Shown piece by piece: positions 6,284-31,623 of a DNA stretch of 64,000 bases. The notes beneath the pieces are model-generated. The model was not told the origin of the DNA. It saw only the letters and a list, made by a program, of their open reading frames with translations, and ran no database searches. Source of the DNA: Hyperoplus lanceolatus (taxonomy: Eukaryota > Chordata > Actinopteri > Uranoscopiformes > Ammodytidae); the NCBI GenBank assembly GCA_026929865.2, contig CM049396.1, positions 21,574,001 to 21,638,000 of the forward strand. The letters are read 5' to 3'. Position 1 is the first letter of the stretch; each line of letters opens with the position of its first letter. The translations under genes were made by a program, and so were the position numbers.

Positions 6284-7070
6284 CTAGGCCTATATATTAG
6301 GCCTATATCTGTGTGATGACAGGGTCGCCGTGCGCGAAGCCAGACGGTTTATATTAATGCCGAAGTGCGTCTGTCAAAAAACTGACTGTCCCACAAGCAT
6401 CGGGATGAAATAGTCTCCGTGCGTTTTTCTGACCAAATAATTAGATAGATAGATAGATAGCAGTCTCAAGACAAAGACAAGACAGACGGATGCATAGCCT
6501 ACTACCGACGTTATTTCAGTGATGGTTCCCTGGGCCTAGAACCATCATTTCACGCCTTGTGATTTAATTTTCGTTGCTCTACAGTATTTCGTATATTATT
6601 TTGTTGAAAATATTCATGTTTGGCGGGAAATTGGCGCAGAAAACCGTCATTGTAAAATAGTGTAGGCCTAAACAATCGCCTGCCGTTATTTGCGCTGGGC
6701 GCTTATTCAGCAAAACGGTTTTCCAGTCGCTTAAAAAAACGAGGCGGCTATCTACATAGTTGGGGAAATAGGCTACAGGAAAAATTATTCTGTCGGAATG
6801 GCGGTACGAAAGTGTGTCGTAGTGGAGGGCTGGAGGAATGGAAGTACGTCGGAGTGGAGGGATGGAGGAAAGAGGGGCTGTCGGAGTGGGGGCCTGTCGG
6901 ACTGTCAGCATGCACCCCATTTGGGTCTAGCCTAGCAGCAGGCATGTTGAAAAACTATCTTGAAAACTGTAGCAATTCATTGTGGAATCTAAATAGTGTC
7001 TGTATTTGTCGAGGTATCGCGCACAACTAGTCTAGCAGCAAGTGCTCAAAAAAGGCTTTAGTTTTCGAGA

Positions 7071-8186
7071 TACCCCTACCCGAGGTAGAACAAACCTCAA
7101 CAATGATTTTTTTATCTTTAGAATGTCCTGTTCATGAAATTGATTCTTGAGCACTTTTATCTTTGGGCGAAATATGTTTTTTTGGTTATTCTTTAGAACT
7201 ACCCTAGTACCTCAAAAAGAGCCAAATTAGGCCACTCCGAATAGGGGATATGTAGTCTCGCAAAGCCAGACCAAACTACAGCAAGTAGTATGGTCTGGAA
7301 GCACTCCGTTTAGAGCCGTCTATTCGGGGGGAAACTGGGCTGGCCTGTTTTTATTTATTTAAACCAATCACAATCATCTACGGCGGGGCTAACCCCGGGA
7401 AGCAGCCAATGGAGGCGTAGCGTTGTTTGCCGACGCCAGCGCTTAATAGACGCTGGCGGGAGTGGTCAAGCCAGACTAGGGGATATGTGACAAAAAAGCC
7501 CATAACTTGGGAATGCTCACTCTTTTCTTCACCAGATTTGCTGAGGTACTAACAGGTGTCTGTCCCACATCACCAAAAAGTTAGAATGTAATTTACCAAA
7601 ACATTTATTGAAATAGAGTCCTGTATACATAGCTTTAGTTTAGGCGGAAATGGTACTTTTGTGGTGATAGGAAAAGAGGGTTCCTTTACTTTTCTCTCAA
7701 ATATCACCAAGACATAAATCCCTGCCAAATATACCATTTATGTATTGTCCAGGATGCTATTTAACAATAACCAGTGGTTGTATGAAGATATCTATTACAG
7801 TTCAATTTCTAATGAGATTTTTCTAGAAGTACTCCTCCACTGAAATAGCCATATTAGGACATTTCAAATGGGGGATAGGTGGCTTAATAGCCTATAGTCC
7901 AGCAGATATGTGAATGCATTGTGCTTTTTATGATACAAACATGAGCTTTGGCACACTGATAGAGCATGCCCTAAGGAAGATTTTTGGCTATAGGGCCATC
8001 GCCAAATTTTTCCTATGGCGCCCATGGCGGCCACTTTTAAAAATGGCCACCAGCAGCTCTTATAGTACCAGTAGCTTGGGTTGTAGAGCACCTAGCATCT
8101 TGATTATGGTGTCTAATCCTACATTTTCAAGGATGGACAAGGCAGTGGTGCTATTTAAAACATGCTAGAAATTACCCAAATTCATA
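7071..8186 (+). repeat. Left long terminal inverted repeat, outer part
   Basis: This is the reverse complement of about 16,320-17,193 with few differences, including TACCCCTACCCGAGGTAGAA at the outer edge. It is interrupted by a 226-bp MITE (7253-7478) and ends at the Tc1 insertion. The intact right arm gives the pre-insertion sequence. Confidence 0.85.
7253..7478. mobile_element. Small MITE inside the left terminal repeat
   Basis: GGGGATATG flanks the insert directly (7244-7252 and 7479-7487), while the right arm near 17,010-17,030 has a single copy. That is a direct empty-site comparison. The ends read TAGTCT and AGACTA, next to an AGCCAGAC motif. The target duplication is at least 8 bp, with extra microhomology. 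This fits a hAT-type non-autonomous insert. Confidence 0.75.
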
Positions 8187-8364
8187 TACACTCAACACAA
8201 ATATAAACGCAACACTTTTGTTTTTGCTCCCATTTTTCATGACTTAAAGATCTAAAATTCATTCCAGATACACAATATTACCATTTCTCTCAAACATTGT
8301 TCACACATCTGTCTAAATGTGTGATAGTGAGCACTTCTGCTTTGCTGAGATAATCCATCCCACC

Positions 8365-10151
8365 TAGGGTTGCAAAGGGGTGGAAAGTTTCCGGTAAATT
8401 ACCGGAAACTTTCCGGGAACTTTCCACGGGAACTTTCGCTCGGGAATTTTGGGAATATTCAAAATTGGAAATTGTAGGAATGAACTAAATGCCGGTAATT
8501 TAAATTATAATTTTTTCACATCCAAACATAAATCTAAACATTTAAACACTATGTTTGGTCATAGGCATACATGCATGCAAAATAATAAAATTAAAAAACA
8601 TTACATTTGTAAGAAGAACTTTATCAAGTTTTGATTATTTTATGAACAATGAATAATTTCACTTAACAAGAAAAAGATTAATGTTGAGTTAAATATTATT
8701 CATCTGTCTGAACCCAACCATTCAATAAATAAAGTCAAATGCCCCCCATGTGATGGAGGAATGCACAGAGCATGTAGGGGGCATGGCCTCAGTAGGGGAG
8801 GACGGGGTAAGTAGACACACTTTTTTCTCTAGTGAGAATTCCTCATCACCTAAAAGATCTTTCAATAGTCATTCCTACATTAAATTGAAGCTTAAGGTGT
8901 TGGCTTGAAATGTGTACCCCTCACTTTTTCTATCTTATTGTAAGAAATTAATCATCGAAGACACCCTTACACATTGTGACAACCAACCCCATCAAGGGGT
9001 CGGTTGTCAAACACTATGGGATTGTTTGTCACAATGTTATCTTAATGGGAATAATCTTAAAAAGAAGTAAAGAAAGTAGAACTAAATTTAAAAGTTTAAT
9101 TGCATTGTCAAGTTGACAAATAGGCCTACATAACTTACTGTAGCCTTGGCAGCTGGTCTAGTTTGGGATGCACTGGGTTGTTTTGATTTTTTTGCCCTTT
9201 TTTCTTTTGCATGCTAGCTGCCTTTTCCTGCTCTATTCTTTCCTTCTCTGGGGATACAGAGAAGGATATATAGTGAGGATACAGCGTGACAATTTTTTTC
9301 GTTATTGGGTTCCTTTTCTGGCTGCAGCCTTTGGATAACATGTGACAACCAACCCCCCAAAAAATGTGACGACCAACCCCAACTAGAATTTCTTGCTACC
9401 ATCAAGGCCAACAACCATCTGACAACTAATTAGCTTGCTAACCACAATCTAAACTATATTTTACCCTTTACACTTTTTATGGGTAACAAGCCATCTTCAA
9501 AGCCTAGAAGAAAAATACTGAGGAGCTAAATATTTTCAATTTGACAAAACACAAACAGTCCTCTCACCTCAAATTCAGCAGTATAACTCCAAGGAAGACT
9601 ATGATCCCAATTCTGGATATTTACATACCAAAATTTCACAGACAGCGCCTTCTGGTTCCGAGATTTAACGATTGTGAAAACCAACCCGTGTGACATACTA
9701 CCCCGTTCTCCCCTACCCCTGCAGTAGGATGTGTGCTAAGTGCAATTTGCCAAGTGTACTTGCATAAAATCTGGTTGTTTTAGTCAAGATTATGCTAAAA
9801 TATATTGTCCCCAACTATATTTAAAATCAAAGCTTAAGCCTCTGTAAACCTGGTCTAGTAAAAATCAATATATGATATCAAGTTGGGTATCTCAATAAAC
9901 TTTGAAAAAAATCTGATTTGAAATTAAATGTTCAAAAATATATTAAAACTTAGTCGAAAACACTGCTTTTTACAGTCTAGAACGTTTGCCTGGACTGAAA
10001 TAACATAGTTAGGAGAATTTAGTGCATTTGGGTGGCTTTAAATTTGGTAAATTCCCGTTAATTCCCAAAATTCCCGTTAATTCCCATAAATTCCCGTTAA
10101 TTCCCATGGAAAGTTTCCAACTTTGAAAATTCCCGGAATTTTGCAACCCTA
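8365..10151. mobile_element. Non-autonomous hAT element nested in Tc1
   Basis: The ends TAGGGTTGCAA and TTGCAACCCTA are perfect inverted repeats. ATCCCACC flanks both sides (8357-8364 and 10152-10159) as an 8-bp target duplication. Subterminal sequence is rich in TTTCC/GGAAA and TTCCCGTTAA motifs. The 1,787-bp body has no long frame. It lies in the Tc1 left inverted repeat and is therefore younger than the Tc1 insertion. Confidence 0.88.
8792..9716. mobile_element. Inverted-repeat insert inside the hAT element
   Basis: GTAGGGGAGGACGGGGTAAG on the left is mirrored by CCCCGTTCTCCCCTAC on the right. TGTGACAACCAACCCC-like motifs recur inside (near 8,977, 9,343 and 9,367). I could not define a target duplication, so the exact ends are approximate. 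If real, this is the fourth level of nesting in the composite. Confidence 0.55.
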
Positions 10152-10299
10152 ATCCCACCTCACAGGTGTGCCACATCAAGATGCTGATCTGACATCATGA
10201 TTAGTGCACAGGTGTGCCTTAGACTGTCCACAATAAAAGGCCACTCTGAAATGTGCATTTTTTTTGCTTTATTCTTTTAGTCTGGGGACTCAGAACCAG

Positions 10300-11319
10300 T
10301 CAGTATCTGGTGTGACCACCATTTGCCTCATGCAGTGCAATACATCTTCTTCGCATAGAGTTTATCAGATTGTCAATTGTGGCCTGTGGAATGTTGGTCC
10401 ACTCCTCTTCAATGGCTGTGCGAAGTTGCTGGATATTAGTGGGAAATGGTGCACGCTGTCGGTCAAGCACATCCCAAACATGCTCAATGGGTGACATGTC
10501 CGGTGAGTATGCTGGCCATGCAAGAACTGGGACATTTTCAGCTTCCAAGAATTGTGTACAGATCCTTGCAACATTGGGCCGTGCATTATCTTGCTGAAAC
10601 GTGAGGTGATGGTCATGGATGTATGGCACAACAATGGGCCTCAGGATCTCATCACGATATCTCTGTGCATTCAAAATGCCATCAATGAAATGCACCTGTG
10701 TTCTTCGTCCATAACAGATGCCTGCCCATACCATAACCCCACCACCACCATGGGCCACTCGATCCACAACATTGACATCAGCAAAGCGCTCACCCACACG
10801 ACGCCACACACGCTGTCTGCCATCTACCCTGAACAATGTAAACCGAGATTCATCCGTGAAGAGAACACCTCTCCAACGTGCCAGACGCCATCGAATGTGA
10901 GCATTTGCCCACTCCAGTCTGTTACGGCAACGAGCTGGAGTCAGGTCAAGACCCCGATGAGGATGACGAGCATGCAGTTGAGCTTCCCTGAGACGGTTTC
11001 TGACAGTTTGTGCAGAAATTGTTTGGTTATGCAAACCAATTGTTTCAGCAGCTGTCTCAGTGGTTGGTCTCAGACGATCTTGGAGGTGAACCTGCTGGAT
11101 GTGGAGGTCCTGGGCTGGTGTGGTTACACGTGGTCTGCGGTTGTGAGGCCGGTTGGATCTAGTGCCATATTCTCTGAAACGCCTTTGGAGACGGCTTATG
11201 GTGGAGAAATGAACATTCAATGATCGAGCAACAGATCTGGTTGACATTCCTGCTGTCAGCATGCCAATTGCACGCTCCCTCAATGCTTGTGGCATCTGTG
11301 GCATTTTGCTGTGAGACAA
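10300..11319 (-). CDS. Tc1 transposase, complete 339-aa frame
   Basis: This is a cut-and-paste transposase of the Tc1/mariner superfamily. It would bind the element's inverted repeats in the nucleus and move the element to TA sites. The N-terminal third (about residues 10-110) has the paired helix-turn-helix layout of the family, including the segment MSTRSVARSLNVHFSTISRL. The catalytic domain follows: first Asp in LFTDESRF, second Asp in TFQQDNARPN, and Glu in SPIEHVWDVL, with 34 residues between the second Asp and the Glu (DD34E). It ends in GGHTRY. The frame runs from ATG to stop without breaks and has the usual family length. The segment between the Glu motif and NIQQL looks a few residues shorter than I recall for relatives, and ARPN replaces the usual ARPH, so activity is uncertain. 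Confidence 0.93.
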   Translation of the reverse strand: MSHSKMPQMPQALRERAIGMLTAGMSTRSVARSLNVHFSTISRLQRRFREYGTRSNRPHNRRPRVTTPAQDLHIQQVHLQDRLRPTTETAAETIGLHNQTISAQTVRNRLREAQLHARHPHRGLDLTPARCRNRLEWANAHIRWRLARWRGVLFTDESRFTLFRVDGRQRVWRRVGERFADVNVVDRVAHGGGGVMVWAGICYGRRTQVHFIDGILNAQRYRDEILRPIVVPYIHDHHLTFQQDNARPNVARICTQFLEAENVPVLAWPAYSPDMSPIEHVWDVLDRQRAPFPTNIQQLRTAIEEEWTNIPQATIDNLINSMRRRCIALHEANGGHTRY

Positions 11320-11583
11320 AACTGCACATTTCAGGGTGGCCTTTTATTGTGAACAGTCTAAGGCACACCTGTGCACTAATCATGATGTCAGATCAGCATC
11401 TTGATGTGGCACACCTGTGAGGTGGGATGGATTATCTCAGCAAAGCAGAAGTGCTCACTATCACACATTTTTGTGAACAATGTTTGAGAGAAATGGTAAT
11501 ATTGTTTATTTTAGATCTTTAAGTCCATCTCATGAAAAATGGGAGCAAAAACAAAAGTGTTGCGTTTATATTTTTGTTGAGTG

Positions 11584-12002
11584 TATCTGGCATTCAGGGA
11601 ACAACATTGTGGTAAAACCTCCAAATATTAGCGGAGTTATGCATATTTTCATGAATTACAGAATCAGTTCATGAGTTGTATGCTGACCTTATATTGCTCT
11701 AGGTTCCAAAGGAGCTAAGTGATATAAACAGTTACCACAATAAAAGTACCAGGCAAGGTAAGTTGCAAGCAGTAACTTTTACTCACATAAAGTTGTAGGT
11801 AACACCCAAAACATATGCATATACTGTTCATTATTTGAAAATAAAAACATGGGCCATTTAAAATAAAGAAGTGTTGTCAATAATCATTTTAGTCTTTATG
11901 TTTTGTGATCCCTTCGGTTTAATCAATCACTGTCAGTGGTTCTCTGTTAAACTGTCTGTAACTGGTCCTGTGACAGTTTTTGGAAAGGATGTGTGTAGCA
12001 GT
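11584..12002 (+). repeat. Left long terminal inverted repeat, inner part
   Basis: This continues the left arm after the Tc1 insertion. It is the reverse complement of about 15,892-16,311 and ends where both arms share GGATGTGTGTAGCAGT. Together with 7071-8186 it makes a roughly 1.3-kb arm. Confidence 0.85.
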
Positions 12003-12041
12003 ATGCTGACCTTATATTGTAAGCATATAAGGTCAGCATAC
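12001..12041. repeat. Perfect 17-bp hairpin at the inner edge of the left arm
   Basis: GTATGCTGACCTTATAT at 12001-12017 is followed by a 7-base spacer and its exact reverse complement at 12025-12041. The same motif occurs once in each terminal arm, so this may be a junction formed by duplication of arm sequence. Confidence 0.85.
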
Positions 12042-12146
12042 AACTAAAGTAAATATCTTTCTTTTTCAAAGCCTGAACAATACATCAGTTTAGCCTGTTT
12101 GATAGGTTGATATTTTATCCGTGTAACCCTCTCTGAGTAAGTCAAC

Positions 12147-12279
12147 ATTGCTCTAGGTACCGAAGGAGCTAAGTGATATAAACAGTTACCACAATGAAAG
12201 TACCAGGCAAGGTAAGTTGCAAGCAGTAACTTTTACTCACATAAAGTTTTAGGTCACACCCAAAACATATGCATATAAA
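12147..12279 (+). repeat. Direct copy of part of the terminal repeat
   Basis: This repeats about 11,692-11,822 in the same orientation, including AAGGAGCTAAGTGATATAAA and ACCAGGCAAGGTAAGTTGCA, with a few substitutions. It shows subterminal duplication inside the long-repeat transposon. Confidence 0.8.
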
Positions 12280-14080
12280 TCATTTTACAAAATTGGCCTA
12301 ATTCTACTTGTACAAGAATGAGGAATGCAGTGGTACTATTTTCAACATGCTAAACTACATACATACTGGCATTCAGGGAATTAAATAACAATAAAACCAT
12401 AAACACATTTATAATTATTTCTGAAAACACAGTCCACCACAGGGGTGGTGCACGGAAGTGCTGCCTTGGCACATTTGCAATGTCCACTGCACCACTTTTT
12501 GCATCCACAGCAGAGGAGTTTACAACAGGCCTGTATCGATCCTGGTAGTGTGGCCCAGTGAAATTCCCATCTGCCTGTGGCCTTCCACTTCCACCCCCAT
12601 TCACCTGGTGATGGGAGTTGAGGGGCTGAAACCATCATATGTCCCCAACAGTGAACAGCTTGGTAGGCAGCCCCCTTTTTGTGTCGCATCAGTGCTGCTT
12701 GTGTTGGAAGTCCCTCGATTGATGTTCCTTTCTGGGTGAAGAGCTGCTTTCTTGCCTGATTGACAGAATCGTGGCTGCTGGTGTGGTCATATAGCAATAC
12801 AACACATCTCTCCAGAGGCTCCATCCAGTTGTCTATGGAGTCAGGTGTGGCAGCAAATGCACAGAAGGCTTTTGTGACATCTTCAAAGCTCCTCCATGTA
12901 TCCCATGCATTTGTCTTACCCCTGCCACCAAAAGATGACACTGTGTCACATCCAGTAAAGGCATGGAACCCCGTCAAGGCGATACATCATTCTGGACCTA
13001 GTGCCCTTGCCATCTTGTGTGCTGCTACATTCTGAAAACTCTTTCCAGCTCCAAAGGCAACCCACAACTCATTGATGTTGAGAGAGTGGGCTGCAGTTAC
13101 TGCCAGTACTAACACATCTGTGTCAACTATGCATATTGATATACTGTTATACCCTTCCTTCACAGCATCTCCAAGGTGCAGTAGTATGCGGGTATCTGTC
13201 TCCTCATGTGTGCATAGTGCAAGAACTTCTACATCTCGAGGCTGAGTGCAGAGGACTTCAGCATAATGGTTGCTAATCACTTGTTTTTCAGTGTTGACGT
13301 CTGTCAGGCCCTTCAGGGAGTTCGTAGAAGAGTTGAGCCGTCAAGTGCCATTCCTGAAAAACGGCCAGAGTTTTTGCGCATTGACGACAACAAGGCTGAA
13401 CTGTTCTCCTTCCTGGCATCTATCTTGCTGCGTGTTTCTGCCTTTAAACTGTGAGGAAAATATTGATCCCACACAACATCCACTCTGCTGACATGCTCCA
13501 GCTTAGACAGGATGTATGGTGAGAACACCTTCTGTGCATATTCAGAAAAGGTCTCAGCAGCACCAGGTCGTAGCATGTTTACGAGCCCCATCAAGTATGT
13601 TGACCTGTACAATGGGGTTGGATTTGTTCTCTTGTGATGAAATCGGGTTCGCCAAACAGCCCACCAAGTCTGACTTGGTTCCAGTTCTTAGCTTGCCCAT
13701 TTGTGACAATGCCAGTGGACATGCCTGGTTTTTCGAGCTAAAAGAAACTCATCCAGTCTTCCATCATGTATCTGGGATACAATATAAAGCCTAGAGAACA
13801 GGGAGCAGTCACTCTTCAGGGATGAGAGCTGTTGTTAGGACCTGGAATTCTCTCGGACTGGAGGCCGGCTGAATAAAGGGAGGTTGTTCCTTTTGATGTG
13901 TTCTTTGATTGGCTTTGTCTGGTTGACCAGGCGTTCACTGACATAGGCGTCATACTGGTCCCGTCCAAGTTTCTCAACCTGGTTGACAGTGTCAATGACT
14001 GCTTCATCCGCAAAGTCCCTAGTATCTAATACAAGAAGATCTACAGTGCTCTTTTCACAGAATGGATTGCCCATGTCTTC

Positions 14081-14950
14081 TACACTCTCCGACCACTTTA
14101 TGAGGTACACCTGTTCAATTGCTTATAAAAACAAAAGACAACATGCTGAAGTTAAAACTGAGCATCAGAATGGGGAAAAAGGGGGTTTAAGCGACTTTTA
14201 ATATGGCATAGTTGATGGAGCAAAGCAGGATGGATCCATGCTTTCATGTTGTTTACCCCAAATTCTGACCCTACCATCTGACTTTCACAACCAAATCAAG
14301 ACTCATCAGACCAGGCAAGACTTTTCTAATCTTTTATTGTCCTGTCTTCTGCTCTTGTAGCCCATCTGCTTCAAGGTTGGTCGCGTTTTGCGTTCAGAGA
14401 TGGTATTCTGTATTTATTTTTATTAACCTTTATTTATACAGGTAAAATCTCATTGAGACCCAGGGTCTCATTTACAAGAGAGATCTGTTCAGGTAGGCAT
14501 ACCTGAACAGGTCACATATACATGTATACCCTGGTTGTAACGAGTGGTTATTTGAGTTAATGTTGCCTTTCTATCATCTTGAACCAGTATGCCCATCCCC
14601 CTCTGACCTCTGACATCAACAAGGCATTTTCATCCACACAAATGTCGCTCACCGGATATATTTTTTTTTTTGGGCCATTCTCTGTAAGCCGTAGAGATGG
14701 TTGTGCATGAAAATCCCAGTAGATCAGCAGTTTCTGAAATACCCAGACCAGCACTTTTGGCACTATCAACATTAACATGTTCAAAGTCACTTAAACCTCC
14801 TTTCTTCCCCATTCTGATGCTCTGTTTTAACTTTAATAAGTTGTCTTGTTCAGGTCCTAAATGCATTGAGTTGCTGCTATGTGATTGGCTGATAAGTTTT
14901 ATGTGTTAACAAGAAAACCACTGTACCTAATAAAGTGGCCGGTGAGTGTA
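14081..14950 (-). mobile_element. Decayed Tc1-like element inside the transposon gene
   Basis: The right end reads AATAAAGTGGCCGGTGAGTG before TA, and the left end is a diverged mirror (TACACTCTCCGACCACTTTA). AGGTACACCTGTTCAATTGC follows at the left end. At about 870 bp it is much shorter than a full Tc1, and most of the transposase is gone. An unrelated repeat (14,405-14,510, CATTGAGACCCAGGGTCTCA) lies inside. It splits the host element's gene. Confidence 0.8.
14557..14866 (-). pseudogene. Tc1 transposase N-terminal remnant
   Basis: Two overlapping minus-strand frames carry the helix-turn-helix region of a Tc1 transposase: GLGISETADLLGFSCTTIS in one frame, then VDENALLMSEVRGGWAYW in the other. 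A frameshift lies between them and the catalytic domain is missing, so no product is expected. Confidence 0.75.
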
Positions 14951-15891
14951 TAGCGGTAATTAGTTCTTTAGTTCTCTTGCAAACGCCAATTGTGCATGTT
15001 TGGTCTACTCAACATCAGGATGTGTGTCCTATAAGTGGACTGGTATCCATCTGGCATAGTGGGTGTGTTCCAAAGCAAAGATCCAAAGCACAATCTTGGT
15101 CAGGTCATCTATATAGAGTAGGAAGTTGGCCTCTCTTATTGATCGCACATAGATAATTTAATCTATTTCTAGCTGCAGGACAATGGACCAGAAGTGGAAC
15201 TGGGGACATGACAAAGCTCTTTCACTACACCAGTCTTCTAAGGACAGAGGATTATTACCCTCCTCCAGGTAATTCATGTACTCGGTGAAAGCCCTCTGCA
15301 GGAGAAGATATAGGCTGCTGGCTGTGACCTGATGAGCATGGCAGAGCCGTCACGTGACAGGCTTTCATAAAGGAATCGGCTGTCCCTGTTGAAGCAGCTC
15401 CAGCTTGCACAAGTGCTCCTGTCCACACGCTACCTTCCAAGATGACGCCAAGTACCTTGACTGCTGCCATCTCAATGTGGAACCCACCAAACATCACAAT
15501 AAAGTTATCTTCACCATGAGCTGTTGGCCAAGTCCACTGGATTTGTTTTGCCACTGCATACAGAGTTTGATCCAGAGTGATGATTGATACCTGACCAGGA
15601 TTCAGAATATCCACTGCCTTCTTCACCACATTCATAGAATGGCGAATCATGGCAAACGGTTTTGGCTTGGTCATAGAAAAGGGGAAGTACACACTACATT
15701 ATGTGGTGTTAACAATGTTGTTATGCTTCAGTATGATTATTGTATAACATTTACACCTAGTGAGATCCACTGTGAAGATCCCTCTCCATTCAGATCTCCC
15801 GGTGTGATCCTTCCAGGACGAGGAACCGACTCATGAAATACTCCACGTGTGGTAGGGCCGTACCAGTCGCCAGTATACACACATCCATTGG

Positions 15892-17193
15892 ACTGCTACA
15901 CACATCCTTTCCAAAAACTGTCACAGGACCAGTTACAGACAGTTTAACAGAGAACCACTGACAGTGATTGATTAAACCGAAGGGATCACAAAACATAAAG
16001 ACTAAAATGATTATTGACAACACTTCTTTATTTTAAATGGCCCATGTTTTTATTTTCAAATAATGAACAGTATATGCATATGTTTTGGGTGTTACCTACA
16101 ACTTTATGTGAGTAAAAGTTACTGCTTGCAACTTACCTTGCCTGGTACTTTCATTGTGGTAACTGTTTATATCACTTAGCTCCTTTGGAACCTAGAGCAA
16201 TATAAGGTCAGCATACAACTCATGAACTGATTCTGTAATTCATGAAAATATGCATAACTCCGCTAATATTTGGAGGTTTTACCACAATTTTGTTCCCTGA
16301 ATGCCAGATATATGAATGTGGGTACTTTCTAGCATGGTTTAAATAGCACCACTGCCTTGTCCATCCTTGAAAATGTAGGATTAGACACCATAATCAAGAT
16401 CCTAGGTGCTCTACAACCCAAGCTACTTGTACTATAAGAGCTGCTGGTGGCCATTTTTAAAAGTGGCCGCCGTGGGCGCCATAGGAAAAATTGGCGATGG
16501 CCCTATAGCCAAAAATCTTCCTTAGGGCATGCTCTATCAGTGTGCCAAAGCTCATGTTTGTATCATAAAAAGCACAATGCATTCACATATCTGCTGGACT
16601 ATAGGCTATTAAGCCACCTATCCCCCATTCGGAATGTCCTAATATGGCTATTTCAGTGGAGGAGTACTTCTAGAAAAATCTCATTAGAAATTGAACTGTA
16701 ATAGATATCTTCATACAACCACTGGTTATTGTTAAATAGCATCCTAGACAATACATAAATGGTATATTTGGCAGGGATTTATCTTTTGGTGATATTTGAG
16801 AGAGAAGTAAAGGAACCCTCTTTTCCTATCACCACAAAAGTACAATTTCCGCCTAAACTAAAGCTATGTATACAGGACTCTATTTCAATAAATGTTCTGG
16901 TAAATTACATTCTAACTTTTTGGTGATGTGGGACAGACACCTGGTTAGTACCTCAGCAAATCTGGTGAAGAAAAGAGTGAGTATTCCCAAGTTATGGGAT
17001 TTTTTTGTCACATATCTCCTATTCGGAATGGCCTAATTTGGCTCTTTTTGAGGGACTGGGGTAGTTCTAAAGAATAACCAAAAAAACATATTTTGCCCAA
17101 AGATAAAAGTGCTCAAGAATCAATTTCATGAACAGGACCTTCTAAAGATAAAAAAAATCATTGTTGAGGTTTGTTCTACCTCGGGTAGGGGTA
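15892..17193 (-). repeat. Right long terminal inverted repeat, uninterrupted
   Basis: This is the intact 1,302-bp partner of the left arm. It shows single copies at the sites where the left arm carries the Tc1 (TTCATATATCTGGC in complement) and the MITE. It therefore dates both insertions as later than the composite element. Confidence 0.87.
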
Positions 17194-18570
17194 CCTGAAA
17201 ATCTGAGGGCCCCTCCTGCTAGTCTAAACTGTATTTGGACGTTTTTGTTTATGAAGAGTCAGACGAGACGATATGAGACTACAAGGGAAATATGGGCGGG
17301 GCCTTGGAGGACTGCGAGCGCAATGCATTGTGGTAGTAGGAGGATTTCTGACTTTAGAGGCAGAGACAGCCAGAGAGACCATACAAACACTCTTTCTGCC
17401 TTTTCTCAGGCTAGGATGAACCGATTTCTAAAATGTTTGCACATTTATACTATGTAGGAGTATAAAGTTCAATACACCTTCATGGTTCCACCAGGGGAGT
17501 AATTTTTTAAAAGATAACCTAGAAGTGTTGTCCAGAATTGAGAAGGATAACATGTAAGTCTGTTTGAGAAGCTATAATACATTTTATACCCTGTGTCATG
17601 TAAATGTAATCAGAATATTGGAGCTCACAAATAATCTGCATGCTTTTCTGTCAGTAAGAAGGACAATGAGTAGAGAGGAGTTTTAATGTTGTATACTCGG
17701 GGCGCTGCCAGGGATTTTGGGTCAGATGAAAAGATACTGGGCCCCACCATAATAAGTGTGCTAAAGACCATCTTGTGTGGTGTGAATGCCATTTTAACAG
17801 TCAAATTATTAAAGGAAAAATTAAAACACGTGAATGCCCTTACTCAAAATAAATACAATTTAAATATACATAACCCCGTCAAAACCCAGAGCAAAATTAT
17901 TCCAGCACAGCGAACATTCTGAGTTCATACGCAACCGCAATGCCAATCATTCATGCTAGTTTGCCTGTCAAAGTTATATTCAACATTTTAAACTTAGTCC
18001 TACTGTAAGACAAGATGCTTTTATGTACACAATGGACAAAACGGGTGGGAAATTAACAGTTTTCGTTGTGTGTAAAGGTATAGAGGCAAGGTTACAAGAA
18101 CGCATTGCCCAGTTGGAGCTGATTTTGCTAAGTGCTTTCCCAGTGCTAAACACATGCTGAAAGCTACAGACTAATGAGAGGAGAGAGACAGGCCGCCATC
18201 TTTGAATGTGCGAATTAAGTGTCAAATCCTTTCTCCCTGTCTCTCCGGAATGCTCTCCTGAGGTGTGTTTGTTCAGCCTCCTTAGCATGAATATTAATGT
18301 TATTTATACAACCTTTTAAAAACTATGGAATGGAATGTTGTTCAAACTGACCCTTTAAACATTTCTGTTCCTTGACCTATTTCCCCTTAACCTTATTTCC
18401 AACTGAAAACCTAATTGAATAATTGTTCCTTAGAAATAACAAAGAAAGCTCTTTTGAAGTTAATCATTCATTCTGAACAATTATTGGTTTATTAATTATG
18501 AGCTGTGGTTAGAGTCTGATAGAACAAATGTTTCACGATTGTCCTGTTCATTGCCGCATGTTTATGTGTA

Positions 18571-18624
<54 letters not shown>

Positions 18625-18675
18625 GATGACTCTTTGTGTGTTTTTCCTTTGTTTGTGTGTGTGTGGTTTGTATAG
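17194..18675. other. Probable intron upstream of epha8 juxtamembrane exon
   Basis: No exon for an Eph transmembrane segment was found here, so the intron upstream of 18,676 may reach beyond the window. A (TG)n run lies at about 18,574-18,621, and a second TG-rich stretch runs to the splice acceptor. Confidence 0.4.

Positions 18676-31623
<12,948 letters not shown>

Follow-up and report, generated by a model that had tools for sequence, protein, structure and literature searches.

A decayed transposon of probable Academ type in Hyperoplus lanceolatus, with relatives that join a candidate DDE-type region to a likely FEN/XPG-like region in one reading frame

The window analysed here, a stretch of 64,000 nt from the fish Hyperoplus lanceolatus, contains a defective DNA transposon of the cut-and-paste type, most likely a member of the Academ superfamily and its AcademX lineage; this assignment, in which the element is set against Academ by description only, is given a probability of roughly 70%. 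That is, the window element is probably a decayed representative of a known but little-studied kind. The superfamily and the AcademX lineage are reportedly the subject of work by Kapitonov and Jurka in 2010 and by Kojima in 2020, and the AcademX nuclease is said in the latter to be of XPG type. In L031, a relative in the same genome, two conserved regions lie in a single frame: an upstream region that may represent a DDE-type (RNase H-like) transposase domain, and a downstream region that is likely a FEN/XPG-like nuclease, a reading drawn from its sequence.

Alignment to other copies in the genome showed that the transposon spans approximately positions 7028-17226 of the window. A preliminary description had recognised a long-repeat transposon at 12381..15692; the long repeats are there, but the element extends far past that interval. 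It is bordered by a 3-bp target site duplication (TSD), AAC, at 7025..7027 on the left and at 17227..17229 on the right, and it has inverted repeats of about 1 kb. The outer part of the left terminal inverted repeat (7028..8188, plus strand, with the tip TAGTCTAGCAG) pairs with the right arm, 7474-8188 with 17024-16309 at 97.1% and 7062-7253 with 17201-17010 at 95.3%, and the right terminal inverted repeat occupies 15892..17226 on the minus strand (tip TAGACTAGCAG, read inward). The left repeat is interrupted at a TA by a nested insertion (8189..11583) with Tc1-like ends (CACTCAACA...GTTGAGTG), which holds further nested repeats and has TA on either side (8187-8188 and 11584-11585). The inner arm of the left repeat follows (11584..12002, plus strand) and is 100% complementary to 15892-16310 over 419 nt (99.5% by blastn). 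These inner arms were rejected as the ends of the element (11584/16310), since the sequence flanking them on the outside is still repeat in other copies.

Several features of the arms deserve mention in their own right. The left and right tips share 10 of their first 11 bp (TAG[T/A]CTAGCAG) and are then unlike for about 15-25 bp, until the long repeat starts. The inner arms are perfectly complementary, as compared with about 97% for the outer repeat, and in the left arm the 419-bp block, which resembles the right arm, lies beside another left-repeat block (12147..12277, plus strand) that matches repeat positions 110-240 at 96%. In several other copies one end consists of positions 1-113, an inverted 91-111 and then 110-240. 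The identity of the inner arms and the block layout of the left arm suggest arm-to-arm copying during repair. Elsewhere in the window, the region 18551-19539 shows many overlapping inverted pairs offset by two bases and resembles simple-repeat or satellite-like sequence.

An exact 3-bp duplication was found in 8 of the 11 copies in which both tips could be read, the frequency in mismatched left-right pairings, taken as a control, being 4 of 110. Among the remaining two-ended copies, C7 agrees at two of the three bases, and L026 and L012 show no agreement. Duplications of 4, 5, 6, 7 or 8 bp were found in none of the 11, and a TSD length other than 3 bp was rejected. Left out of this count, for want of a recognisable tip at one end, are L016 and the C2 14-kb pair, as are the single-ended entries L009, C1:4312285, C15, L011 and L010; near L022, a further end (L044) could pair with the same left end instead and was not counted separately. 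The inverted repeats of the 1-kb class and the duplication of constant length, both of which the preliminary description had listed for checking, are supported.

The element is repeated in the genome. With 150 of the 184 candidates scored, a protein search of the same genome (806.7 Mb) gave at least 135 matches with E no higher than 0.001, a figure that is not a copy number, since the matches cover several families and several pieces per copy. A search with the right tip gave at least 40 matches (40 of 60 candidates scored); among the matches listed there are 20 right-type ends besides the window's own (query start of at most 26), and 17 of these begin at query positions 15-17, corresponding to window positions 17225-17227. 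Relatives were also sought in collections of viral contigs and of genome contigs, where none was found. The relative L031 has one stop-to-stop frame of 1536 codons, and the copies of its type (L031, L050, L059, L060 and L064) share 91-98% identity over the nuclease part; with this identity and a frame of that length still open, the family looks young. Two further relatives, L052 (84-1037, minus strand) and L063 (750-1487, plus strand), each have an open frame (318 and 317 aa, respectively) in which GED replaces GCD; the protein of L052 finishes with an acidic tail and has no cysteine cluster there. They may belong to a different element family or have an altered nuclease.

The preliminary description had stated that no superfamily of such a build was known. 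Given the literature on AcademX and Academ, this is very probably wrong: as far as the excerpts of the paper go, AcademX elements make TSDs of 3 or 4 bp and AcademH elements TSDs of 9 or 10 bp, these lengths being tied to the encoded nuclease or helicase (PMC10045372). AcademX, compared here by description only, has a nuclease besides a DDD/E transposase, as the present family likely does, and agrees with it in TSD length, for which the window family gave 3 bp in 8 of 11 copies and 4 bp in 0 of 11. AcademH, of the same superfamily, likewise combines an accessory DNA enzyme with the transposase, but the enzyme is a helicase and the TSDs are 9-10 bp, as opposed to a nuclease-like part and 3 bp here. 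In the portions of the sources at hand, Academ is listed among the DDD/E superfamilies (PMC9587614, PMC10294476) and has been reported in zebrafish, medaka and stickleback (PMC4746887) and in Xiphophorus (PMC4705583).

An alternative is that the element belongs to another or unnamed DDE superfamily, which gained a FEN-like nuclease independently of Academ. A precedent is found in the Kolobok lineages, which, in the part of the source seen, bear several different accessory nucleases; KolobokP and KolobokE resemble the present family in placing a nuclease downstream of a DDD/E transposase, but that nuclease is of the His-Me finger or PD-(D/E)xK type (PMC9587614), and across the Kolobok nuclease lineages the downstream domain is PD-(D/E)xK, His-Me or DEDDh, whereas the motif order here is FEN-like. 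The likeness to Academ is moreover one of description and not of sequence, and the Pfam match of the upstream region to DUF6589, described below, is of uncertain meaning. Against an independent gain, both the accessory nuclease and the TSD length fit AcademX as excerpts of PMC10045372 describe it, and Academ is annotated in teleosts (PMC4746887, in part), so that this alternative appears rather unlikely.

In the window copy, the ordered motifs and the cysteine cluster that had been noted earlier do lie in one decayed gene. This gene is on the minus strand, lies in three frames and is interrupted by stops, by frameshifts and, at 14108-14866, by a stretch of 759 bp. The stretch is missing from copy L011 and was interpreted as inserted sequence; something resembling part of it is present in L022 and L017. 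The FEN-like 3′ half (12384..13340, minus strand) contains EETD, DTD, GCD and GxGK motifs and one internal TGA. That is, CTHEETDTRILLH at 13176-13214 and CIVDTDVLVLAV at 13098-13133 are followed by the TGA stop and then by AFTGCDTVSSFGGRGK at 12915-12962, and the CXC-like C-terminal cysteine cluster CCGCKKWCSGHCKC lies at 12471..12512, all on the minus strand. Two more motifs in FEN order, absent from the preliminary description, were found on the same strand in different frames, at the aligned family positions of the first and second acidic motifs: LDG at 13587..13595 and VVWDQYF at 13457..13477. Further upstream, a linker segment (13841..14083, minus strand) shares 52% identity with L031 residues 981-1060. 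With about 40-57% identity to the open frame of L031, the pieces of the window gene are far above chance.

The corresponding motifs in L031 are IFDG near residue 1140, VWDVY at 1182, EEAD at 1275, DTD at 1302 and GCD at 1359, followed by a C-terminal cysteine cluster from 1505. Alignments of the family retain the acidic motifs in the order of FEN1 (DG, VWD, EEAD, DTD and GCD plus GxGK), and the acids D91, D130, D134, E225, E226, D228, D252, D254 and D311 (numbered as in the query of 486 aa) show little or no variation across an alignment of 10 rows. The family thereby has in common with FEN1, EXO1 and XPG the ordered acids, which are catalytic in those enzymes, a helix-hairpin-like GxG motif and a GxD...GxGxK stretch that aligns without gaps to the archaeal LVGTDFN..GIGPK; it differs from them in being fused to a transposase-like region and to a cysteine cluster, and in giving no significant profile match. 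As to the cysteine cluster, L051 matched Pfam TCR/CXC weakly (E 0.029). CXC-type clusters are also carried by KDZ proteins, but Zisupton/KDZ transposons make 8-bp TSDs, as opposed to 3 bp here, and none of the KDZ families was among the Pfam matches of the relatives.

The resemblance to FEN1 was quantified by chaining five short FEN1 blocks under spacing limits and scoring the chain on the family average (nine groups, 29 rows); the comparator comprised 51 archaeal loci with the FEN1 motif, of which 43 open frames of 300-380 aa were used. The five-block chain scored 12.67, the best of 5000 column permutations 12.19 (0 of 5000 as high) and the reversed profile -7.2. The block scoring had been altered after earlier results (the first settings were too strict, softer and shorter blocks were used next, and then the family average), so that the 0 of 5000 does not come from a test fixed in advance. 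The GCD block dominates the score: once the GCD/GxGK block is left out, 119 of 2000 permutations do as well, while the E, D and G blocks alone gave 0 of 2000. The upstream domain, used as a control, was not elevated (1768 of 2000 as high). When blocks were placed freely, the expected site was the best for the GCD block (7.0 vs -1.1), the expected sites of the E and D blocks ranked only fourth, and that of the V block fell outside its best four; in the best chain the D block lies 10 columns ahead of its expected place. For single proteins, the number of shuffles per 1000 scoring as high was 0 for L029, 5 for L053, 11 for L051, 20 for L055 and 41 for L056, and 329 for the nuclease part of L031, 338 for L054 and 893 for the whole of L031. 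Among 197 other archaeal open frames, those scoring as high numbered 1, 2, 1, 8 and 8 for the first five proteins in the same order, 61 for the nuclease part of L031 and 77 for L054.

The suggestion of a FEN/XPG-like nuclease is thus upheld by the motif order and by the family-level statistic, but not by hhalign or Pfam. The hhalign comparison with archaeal FEN1 was not significant (Prob 2%, E 0.024, with 2 of 200 shuffles as high), and the reversed profile outscored the true one (27.0 vs 25.4). Pfam XPG/FEN families matched neither the 29 family rows nor the whole L031 protein, and a Pfam scan of the window pieces gave nothing bearing on a nuclease or transposase. Sequence searches of the PDB returned no FEN match, the best being apolipoprotein A-I, which aligned to the GCD stretch at E 0.0043. 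AlphaFold gave no usable fold from the single sequence of the window 3′ half alone (mean pLDDT 33.7). The lack of a profile match, the weak hhalign result and the mixed single-sequence tests are what would be seen if the downstream domain had no FEN/PIN fold and its acids fitted the FEN pattern by chance or convergence. Nevertheless, that no permutation in 5000 reached the family score, and that the GCD block freely chose its expected site, argue against such a coincidence, which we consider unlikely; a FEN/XPG-like nuclease is the likely reading of the domain.

On the N-terminal side, the L031 protein has Cys-rich stretches starting at residues 41 and 157, and further on it shows, in order, VDNIDHN at 502, AADQPLY at 676, MFGGLHIEM at 704 and ALDQCHEQNN at 896. 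In an 18-row alignment the VDN is present in all 5 rows that reach the block, the DQ in 8 of 8 and the E in 5 of 5; L051 is gapped at the VDN, L018 ends ahead of the E, and the DQ count leaves out four first-D rows with unrelated tail letters in the DQ columns. L051, which is 21-26% identical in the upstream region, keeps the second and third blocks, the first not being covered. Part of the region was matched weakly by Pfam DUF6589, in 3 of the 18 rows at E up to 10 (best E 1.9e-4), the score for L051 (19.7 bits) lying under the curated cut-off of 27, and no transposase match was found in PDB sequence searches. We take this group of motifs to be what a DDE transposase in the style of hAT, MuDR, P or Kolobok could show, in which case the G-x-x-H after the second D of L031 would presumably occupy the place of the C/DxxH of those enzymes. 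The C/DxxH motif is described in the part of PMC9587614 consulted. L031 thus has the FEN-order motifs in one frame with D/D/E-like blocks upstream of them, which we read as a DDE-type domain.

Two pieces of this upstream domain survive on the minus strand of the window copy, 15348..15686 corresponding to L031 residues 640-752 and 15011..15340 to residues 756-874, and the second-D motif DQTLY and the GGFH motif are retained (TLDQTLY at 15558-15578, MFGGFHIEM at 15468-15494). Missing is the segment that contains VDNI[DE]H, the first-D motif; L024 has it between the positions that match window 15707 and 15689 (minus strand), and L015 and L019 are consistent with this. The E segment is lacking as well, since L031 residues 875-980 are unmatched in the window at E 1e-4. 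That both of these segments are missing explains why the DDE-type region had been overlooked, and with no complete transposase encoded by the window copy, the element is either dead or moved in trans. The original proposal, in which the FEN-like nuclease replaces a DDE domain and acts as the transposase, is very unlikely: its motifs are in FEN order, the window copy has no full DDE triad and no Pfam transposase family matched the relatives scanned, but the VDN, DQPLY-GGLH and DQxxEQNN blocks are conserved in the same L031 frame as the nuclease region and recur partly in other families of the genome, and a TSD with a constant length of 3 bp is what staggered strand transfer by a DDE enzyme usually leaves behind.

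Under the preferred reading of an Academ-type element, a protein of the L031 type would comprise N-terminal Cys/His clusters, a DDE-type domain, a FEN/XPG-like domain and the C-terminal cysteine cluster. Such a protein would bind the transposon ends, and its DDE triad would cut them and join them at a target staggered by 3 bp, gap filling then producing the 3-bp duplication, while the FEN-like part may process 5′ strands or flaps as the element is excised or inserted. A more specific division of labour can be proposed tentatively, in which the DDE domain would cut and join the transferred 3′ ends, the fused FEN/XPG-like domain would cut the 5′ non-transferred strand and the cysteine cluster would hold the ends. 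The boldest reading left is that the two domains, as unrelated nucleases in one polypeptide, would be a eukaryotic analogue of the TnsB/TnsA split in Tn7.

A mechanism that appeared new, in which a transposon does without a DDE transposase, is corrected to an architecture that has likely been described already. With its ends and TSD annotated and a relative in a single frame, the family offers an example for testing what an XPG/FEN-like nuclease, whose role is unexplained, does in transposition, and for this the better-preserved relatives, rather than the window copy, would be the useful material.
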